From Syntrophomonadaceae bacterium (GTDB lineage: Bacteria > Bacillota > Dethiobacteria > DTU022 > UBA8154), in assembly GCA_003556225.1 (NCBI GenBank), contig PWRN01000088.1:1-36674 (forward strand): a stretch of 36,674 nt of DNA, given 5' to 3'. The position numbers and the translations under genes were made by a program. Below the pieces are notes generated by a model that had not been told where the DNA came from, searched no databases, and saw only the letters and a list, made by a program, of their open reading frames with translations. Shown piece by piece: positions 19,176 to 34,580 of the stretch (the first letter of the stretch is position 1; each line of letters opens with the position of its first letter).

Positions 19176-19338
19176 CTTAAACCCCACCTATCTCAGCATC
19201 CCCAGCCGCAGCAGGAAGGGGCAGCATCCAGGATCGGCCTGCACGCGCTGTCCGGGAACCTCAGTCAAGTATATAAAAGAATCCGGGTAAAATCAACCAC
19301 AGTGAAGCCTCTCTTTTTCCTGCGTTTCTAAATGCGAT

Positions 19339-19577
19339 GATCAATTTTAGTCAGGTAGCACAGCTGTTTTACCCACTTGTCCTCGGCTCACTGGATTTGC
19401 GAAATAATTTGTTTCGGTGCTCGGGGTTTCTGGCCGCCTCAAAAACTCCCTCGCTACACTCGCTCAAACAGTTTGAGGCGGCTTTACTGAAACCCCTACG
19501 CGCCTTCTTATCAAGGCAAATCCAATATTCGCCGAGGGCAAGCGGGGAAAAGACTTCATTCCTGAGCAAGTTTGATC
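19339..19577 (+). repeat. structured dispersed repeat, copy A
   Basis: This element fills much of the 487-bp gap between coaE and mutM; outside it (19176-19338, 19582-19674) I see nothing recognisable. Copy B is at 34304-34518 in the same orientation, sharing long identical runs. Copy A is almost entirely an imperfect inverted repeat. From outside inward the pairs are GATCAA/TTGATC, TCAGG/CCTGA, TTTTACCCACTTGTCCTCGGC-type arms (19367-19387 with 19531-19551), GGATTTGC (19393-19400)/GCAAATCC (19516-19523), GGGGTTTC (19423-19430)/GAAACCCC (19489-19496), and GCCGCCTCAAA (19433-19443)/TTTGAGGCGGC (19472-19482). The apical loop contains CTCGCTACACTCGCTCA. It could be a MITE- or REP-like mobile repeat or a structured RNA. 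The open frame on the minus strand looks spurious. Confidence 0.85.
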
Positions 19578-19674
19578 GCCAGGTTTTTAAATACCCCCAA
19601 CCAGCTGCTGCAAGTTTACAATCATCTGCCCGCGGCTTCATCTATGAGACCCGGGTAGGATGAAAAACCGACCT

Positions 19675-34234: not shown

Positions 34235-34303
34235 GTGAGATCAACCTCCTTAAAGCTTTTTCCTCTTTCCTGGTAATCAAACTTGCTTAAAAATCAACCC
34301 TCA

Positions 34304-34518
34304 TTTCCCCGTTTACCCTCAACCACAGGATTTGCGACAGGGTTTGTCTCGGTGCCCGGGGGGGATCAAGTTGCCTCAAAAACGCCTCGCTACGCTCGCT
34401 CAGACAGGTTGAGGCGGCTTTGCTGAAACCCCTGCGCGCCTTTTTATGCAGGCAAATCCCATGTTTGCTGAGGGCCAGCAGGGAAACAACCGTGAGATCT
34501 GGCGAAACTCGATCGCCA
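34304..34518 (+). repeat. structured dispersed repeat, copy B
   Basis: Occupies most of the 346-bp gap between the DUF116 and YugP genes and aligns with copy A (19339-19581) over about 200 bp. Outside it (34235-34303 and 34519-34580) I see nothing. Arms: TTTCCC (34304-34309)/GGGAAA (34481-34486), CCCTCA (34316-34321)/TGAGGG (34469-34474), GGATTTGC (34328-34335)/GCAAATCC (34452-34459), AAGTTGCCTCAA (34368-34379)/TTGAGGCGGCTT (34409-34420). The loop CTCGCTACGCTCGCTCA differs from copy A at a single base. Two C-G pairs of copy A are U.G pairs here. The spacing between the right-hand GCAAATCC and the shared GATCGCCA word differs from copy A by only one base. The small open frames inside it are spurious. 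Confidence 0.85.
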
Positions 34519-34580
34519 TCTTCTCGTATCGTTTCTCTGCAGCAGGGAGCGCTGTGCAGCCAACTCCCTGGCTTTCCTTA

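Follow-up and report, generated by a model that had tools for sequence, protein, structure and literature searches.

A palindromic, probably MITE-like repeat family in a Syntrophomonadaceae bacterium and the hairpin apex found in other palindromes of Bacillota

Introduction

The element analysed here is like the bacterial MITEs, such as ERIC, RUP, Correia/NEMIS, bcr1 and Nezha, in having a length within 70-300 bp, no coding capacity and terminal repeats (TIRs), and also in its tens of copies, its AT-rich intergenic targets, direct repeats that fade with age and transcripts that could form stem-loops (PMC10969869, PMC3733652). Unlike the named MITE families, to which no sequence relation has been established, it is palindromic over nearly its whole length. 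It also differs from them in that two unlike types of TIR are always paired, the core is invertible relative to the ends, and the hairpin apex is common to other palindromic families of the phylum. A further comparison is with the GTAG- or CGTC-tagged REPs and the RAYT/TIRYT elements, which are likewise dispersed intergenic palindromes with a hairpin that carries conserved unpaired positions (PMC3733652). REPs are hairpins of 20-40 bp tagged GTAG or CGTC, whereas the present element is about ten times longer, at ~250 bp, and has the ends CCTGG../..CCA; unlike REP/RAYT elements it makes 9-bp duplications, has no adjoining tyrosine transposase and conserves the apex of the hairpin rather than its foot. 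The TMECO intrastrand triplex repeats of Escherichia coli are also intergenic, without strand bias and mirror-like in sequence, but they are G/C-rich 37-mers (PMC4666352), whereas in the present family a long palindrome encloses the apex described below, a short mirror repeat of A, C and T. Our searches of the palindrome and REP/MITE literature returned no description of this family, and a literature search on the apex string returned none.

Two copies of the element in the window

The window, the whole stretch of DNA that was analysed, comprises 36,674 nucleotides of a contig from a Syntrophomonadaceae bacterium. An initial annotation had proposed that it holds two copies, A and B, of one dispersed repeat, and both proved to be real: they can be aligned end to end, and the family covariance model (135-position model R2, the training set of which included copy A) matched the whole window at 19393-19527 (152.5 bits) and 34328-34463 (109.4 bits) and at no other position. 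These matches, both on the plus strand, mark the conserved hairpin core of each copy. Copy A sits in a 487-bp gap with coaE and mutM on either side and copy B in a 346-bp gap with a membrane-protein gene on each side, as judged by eye from the translations.

The limits first given to both copies were too narrow. Copy A is a full element of 250 bp at 19334-19583, with its core on the plus strand, a beta-type TIR on the left (CGATGATCAATTTTAGTCAGG, 19335-19355, plus strand) and an alpha-type TIR on the right (TGGCGATCAAACTTGCTCAGG, 19561-19581, minus strand), both located by a TIR pattern search. Inside these ends lies an inverted repeat of ~20 bp, with its left arm at 19368-19387 (TTTACCCACTTGTCCTCGGC) and its right arm at 19531-19550 (GCCGAGGGCAAGCGGGGAAA), both on the plus strand. 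The apex of the hairpin, AAACTC followed by a variable piece and TCAAACA, occupies 19443-19470 on the plus strand and its sequence is conserved across Bacillota. Copy B spans about 34269-34519 (~251 bp, plus strand) with the opposite arrangement of ends. Its left terminal repeat had been overlooked; comparison of flanks and end types places it at 34271-34291 on the plus strand, as a degraded alpha type. The apex of copy B, identified from the sequence and the model alignment, lies at 34380-34406 (plus strand), the right inner repeat (GCTGAGGGCCAGCAGGGAAA) at 34467-34486 (plus strand) and the right, beta-type TIR, found by the pattern search, at 34498-34518 (minus strand). The inner repeat GCTGAGGGCAAGCAGGGAAA, 20 bp long, was seen at two places in the window, where 0.01 occurrences would be expected. 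Copy A folds far more stably than its shuffled versions (-109.2 against -72.7 kcal/mol, z = -7.5). The fold of copy B is much weaker against shuffles (z = -2.35), and copy B is therefore the more decayed of the two.

Size and setting of the family

The family is not confined to the two copies of the window; a total of only two would have counted against a dispersed repeat. A BLAST search of the bacterium's own assembly (G000; 1.81 Mb in 108 contigs) with copy A gave 34 rows at E<1e-5. We set aside six as the opposite arm of a copy already listed, which leaves 28 loci. With a covariance model built on the 89-nt core, 18 matches were found in the same genome at E<=0.001, and the TIR pattern search adds end-only relics to the family. 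The second genome of the genus, congener G001, holds a similar set of copies. In the named collection the exact pattern matched Syntrophomonadaceae bacterium isolate CSSed11_70. The sediment datasets of a soda-lake metagenome study (PMC6146748) include CSSed11, which we read from the sample names given there as Cock Soda Lake 2011.

All 25 loci that we examined are intergenic, as judged with a crude ORF caller, and the open reading frames within the element are only overlapping junk, giving it no coding capacity. The element had been described as running against the flanking genes. This is correct for copies A and B, whose four flanking genes (4/4) all lie on the minus strand, but it does not extend to the family, as over the 25 loci the neighbours are co-directional, convergent and divergent and the orientation to genes is not fixed.

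Three further observations concern individual loci. At contig ends in both species (L010, G000:C96:16228-16527, and L090, G001:C190:1-264) two elements follow each other head to tail across a shortened junction, GAAACCGGGCCCACGGGATTTGC, either as a dimer or through assembly collapse of a tandem array. A match resembling a TPP riboswitch (L020:1123-1281, minus strand, on G000:C70; 48.5 bits, below the gathering score of 54.3) has a half copy of the element close by. An alpha-end relic present in both species (L082:905-932 and L468) lies just downstream of a TGATATAAT-like sequence and directly upstream of the start of a lepA-like gene, and may now be part of the gene leader.

Terminal repeats, target duplications and internal arrangement

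Full copies are about 250 bp long and the aligned copies have their outer ends in common. The TIRs are ~21-23 bp and fall into two distinguishable types, alpha (consensus CCTGGTGATCAAGCTTGCTCAGGAATGAA) and beta (consensus TGGCTATTAAGTTTAGTCAGGTTTCGCCGCC), with one alpha and one beta end in every two-ended copy that could be scored. Two-ended copies measure 227-248 bp between the TIRs, and matches to the TIR pattern pair at 244-248 bp; the pattern search also recovered internal-deletion forms of 56, 97 and 138 bp.

The initial annotation saw no target-site duplication, which proved to be wrong. We compared the left and right flank of each of 19 copies against re-paired flanks from other copies, and obtained a summed 9-mer match of 124 against 94.6 ± 4.75 in permutations, none of 20,000 being as high. 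The signal is best at 7-9 bp and the duplication is AT-rich. Copy A itself is flanked by a 9-bp duplication, TTTCTAAAT at 19325-19333 and TTTTTAAAT at 19584-19592, which agree at eight of nine bases; at L032, the ortholog of copy A in the sister species, TTTCTAAAT stands on both sides, a perfect 9/9. A second perfect 9-bp repeat flanks L037 (ATTATGTTA on both sides). The target duplication of copy B is poor, at 5/9.

Full copies share one layout, in which an end is followed by the ~20-bp inner repeat, the hairpin core, the inner repeat again and the other end. With orthologs merged, we counted 16 independent insertions, 11 of them with the alpha end to the left of the core and five with the beta end to the left. 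In these five the core is inverted relative to both ends, for which the simplest account would be inversion between the 20-bp inner repeats.

The TIRs, the 9-bp duplications, the dispersed intergenic copies and the lack of coding capacity support the suggestion, made in the initial annotation, of a MITE mobilised by an unlinked enzyme. We conclude that the element is very probably a non-autonomous palindromic DNA transposon of the MITE-like kind, about 250 bp long. In such a system a trans-acting enzyme would bind the TIRs, cut the target with a 9-bp stagger, by chemistry of the DDE type, and then insert the element.

Pairing in the hairpin core

Between genera the core changes in sequence while its pairing is kept. 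In a covariation set of 17 sequences from six genomes, which were aligned by sequence (MAFFT) and not fitted to structure, 15 of 34 pairs are changed on both sides, with none of 500 shuffles as high. We counted 39 compensatory cells in this set against 9.4 in shuffles, and shifting the pairing partners abolished the signal. These compensatory changes between genera, together with the strong fold of copy A and an apex that is unpaired and conserved, speak for the other possibility raised in the initial annotation, a structured RNA family, with transcription of every copy and a hairpin that works as RNA, be it a regulator, a stabiliser or a small RNA.

G·U and A·C are mirror images of one another on the two strands, and a structured RNA would prefer G·U on the strand that is transcribed. 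In the model-fitted alignments they occur 29 against 29 and 24 against 23 times, and in a structure-blind alignment of the arms from many genomes 198 against 179 times (p = 0.35, nominal as the elements are not independent). Twelve tRNAs from the same loci gave 20 G·U and no A·C, a control that is illustrative only, being biased by the ARAGORN pairing rules, which favour G·U. Within the bacterium's own genome the two arms match at 0.69 within a copy and at 0.69 between copies, while the same arm matches at 0.79 between copies. The arms thus match equally well within and between copies, and inserted copies are therefore not individually kept paired in this genome; the pattern is that expected for neutral decay of inserted copies. 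No Rfam family overlapped the element, also at permissive thresholds, and TIRs and target duplications are unexpected for an RNA gene. Set beside the mixed orientation to genes, these results make the structured RNA highly unlikely in our view. The missing excess of G·U, the missing co-evolution of the arms within copies and the mixed orientation fit a DNA hairpin that the mobile lineage requires, not an RNA that functions at each site.

We also observed that over all aligned elements pyrimidine-pyrimidine mismatches between the arms outnumber purine-purine mismatches by 649 to 319 on the strand that reads AAACTC..TCAAACA; part of this asymmetry may stem from a conserved T-rich bulge.

Decay of inserted copies and search for an autonomous partner

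If the element is a MITE-like transposon, the active lineage would require the hairpin in its DNA form in order to propagate, and copies once inserted would decay freely through point mutation and through deletions that start at the tip of the element or end in the loop. Comparison of orthologous sites in the two species revealed such truncations. The right half at L016 is a full copy at the orthologous L035, the 97-bp L054 has its counterpart in L079 with one end missing, L067 pairs with the 56-bp L074, and L006 has lost an internal piece that is kept in L034. For the first three of these pairs, unchanged flank adjoins the truncated copy at the tip of the element or within a few bases of it. 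Right-half copies have their breakpoints in the region of the loop, from query position 121 to 162. Cleavage at a single end followed by repair would give truncations of this kind. We considered the half copies as separate short elements and excluded this, as L035 is full where L016 is a half.

We looked through part of the two genomes for a clean empty site and found only occupied sites or deletions of the element plus flank; the sole candidate, L038 against L473, has a 50-bp flank deletion as well. No autonomous copy with the same TIRs was found in either genome of the genus. Among 98 genomes of the class the TIR pattern occurred in these two only, both fragmented MAGs, and we identified no TIR pair that spans a gene. 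Several of the genomes analysed are fragmented MAGs, with contigs broken at the repeats. MAGs often drop multi-copy transposons, and the missing autonomous copy is for this reason weak counter-evidence.

A different source of mobility would be a REP/RAYT-type system, in which a tyrosine (HUH) transposase of the REP-associated kind moves the hairpins. Many genomes with related hairpins do have Y1-transposase genes (253-319 aa), among them congener G001 with one such gene (L149:19-780, G001:C131), which has GGGACA-type inverted repeats nearby and is absent from the bacterium's own assembly. GGGGWSAS repeats have been reported beside TIRYT genes, and the GGGACA-type repeats at L149 and L151 resemble these (PMC3733652). 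The inverted repeats beside the Y1 genes at L149 and L151 are unrelated to the hairpin, however, and in the 18 genomes searched, with the surroundings of each match scanned, no hairpin core lay near any Y1 gene. The bacterium's own genome has no Y1 gene, and a 9-bp duplication is not HUH chemistry. We regard such a system as extremely improbable here, and the REP-like character first suggested, in the strict sense of a GTAG- or CGTC-tagged, RAYT-linked hairpin, does not hold.

The hairpin apex beyond the genus

With the core model we identified relatives in G025, G053, G024 and G091, which belong to other families of the class, and an extended model matched 14 of 398 genomes of the phylum, the best new one at 77 bits. 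Constant among these relatives is AAACTC, a small hairpin and TCAAACA, whereas the rest of the palindrome arms differ. The apex usually sits above a GC-rich stem, beside a bulge like TNTTCCT, and in many relatives the apex AAACTCGCTTCGCTCAAA is a mirror repeat. The hairpin copies of G053 (L171-L174) are also surrounded by further dispersed pieces of palindrome, AAACACTGCCGGGCAGCGCGA, which suggests nested or composite repeats.

The bare pattern AAACTCGN{3,14}CTCAAACA is present in 52 of the 398 genomes; by our sums it has 137 matches, and the reversed control has about 37. Where a match is single, it is in most cases due to chance. Clusters of 23, 17, 10, 8, 7 and 7 matches per genome occur, against at most two per genome in the reversed control, and of 30 apex loci tested, eight exceed the 99th percentile of random places in the palindromy of their arms, where 0.3 would be expected. 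The multi-copy genomes G125, G360, G143, G298, G363 and G458 hold dispersed palindromes with the apex, although a few of the copies listed for them have weak arms. In all, the apex stands at the centre of palindromes with unrelated arms in at least 15 genera of Bacillota, genomes found by the covariance model included. The strict core pattern was not found in viral contigs; the matches of the loose apex pattern there, among those listed, are in our judgement mostly chance. Distant BLAST against plasmid and phage collections gave no match.

In genus g77 (G125 and G360) the apex-proximal 40 nt of the arms match at 0.77-0.79 within copies and at 0.54-0.58 between copies, and the pairing of each copy is therefore maintained, by selection or by correction at the level of DNA. 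The latter is at the heart of another explanation, under which the elements are a decayed family of ordinary inverted repeats, with their palindromy kept by template-switch correction between the arms and not by a function. Correction of this kind yields compensatory changes without selection, and both the absence of a strand signature and the arm match in g77 agree with it. It would, however, erase two features that are conserved across genera, the T-rich, asymmetric bulge and the apex, in which one side never complements the other, and we consider this explanation unlikely.

The common apex suggests a shared recognition site. It is possible, though we put it forward tentatively, that the palindromes belong to a superfamily of DNA palindromes throughout Bacillota, with arms and ends specific to each lineage, built around one hairpin tip with a T-rich bulge below it. 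The tip would be recognised by an as yet undescribed enzyme that processes DNA, or by such a host factor, through which the palindromes are propagated or maintained, and in some lineages, such as g77, each inserted copy would individually be kept palindromic.

Implications

As a MITE family, the element is an ordinary kind of thing; the apex is the unusual part. The same unpaired, mirror-symmetric motif tips palindromes of ~200-270 bp, whose arms show no relation between one genus and the next. Because a long palindrome is as a rule cut and lost, the recurrence of this tip points towards shared machinery by which such palindromes are moved, protected or used. With the motif, the model and the list of genomes, this idea can be tested.
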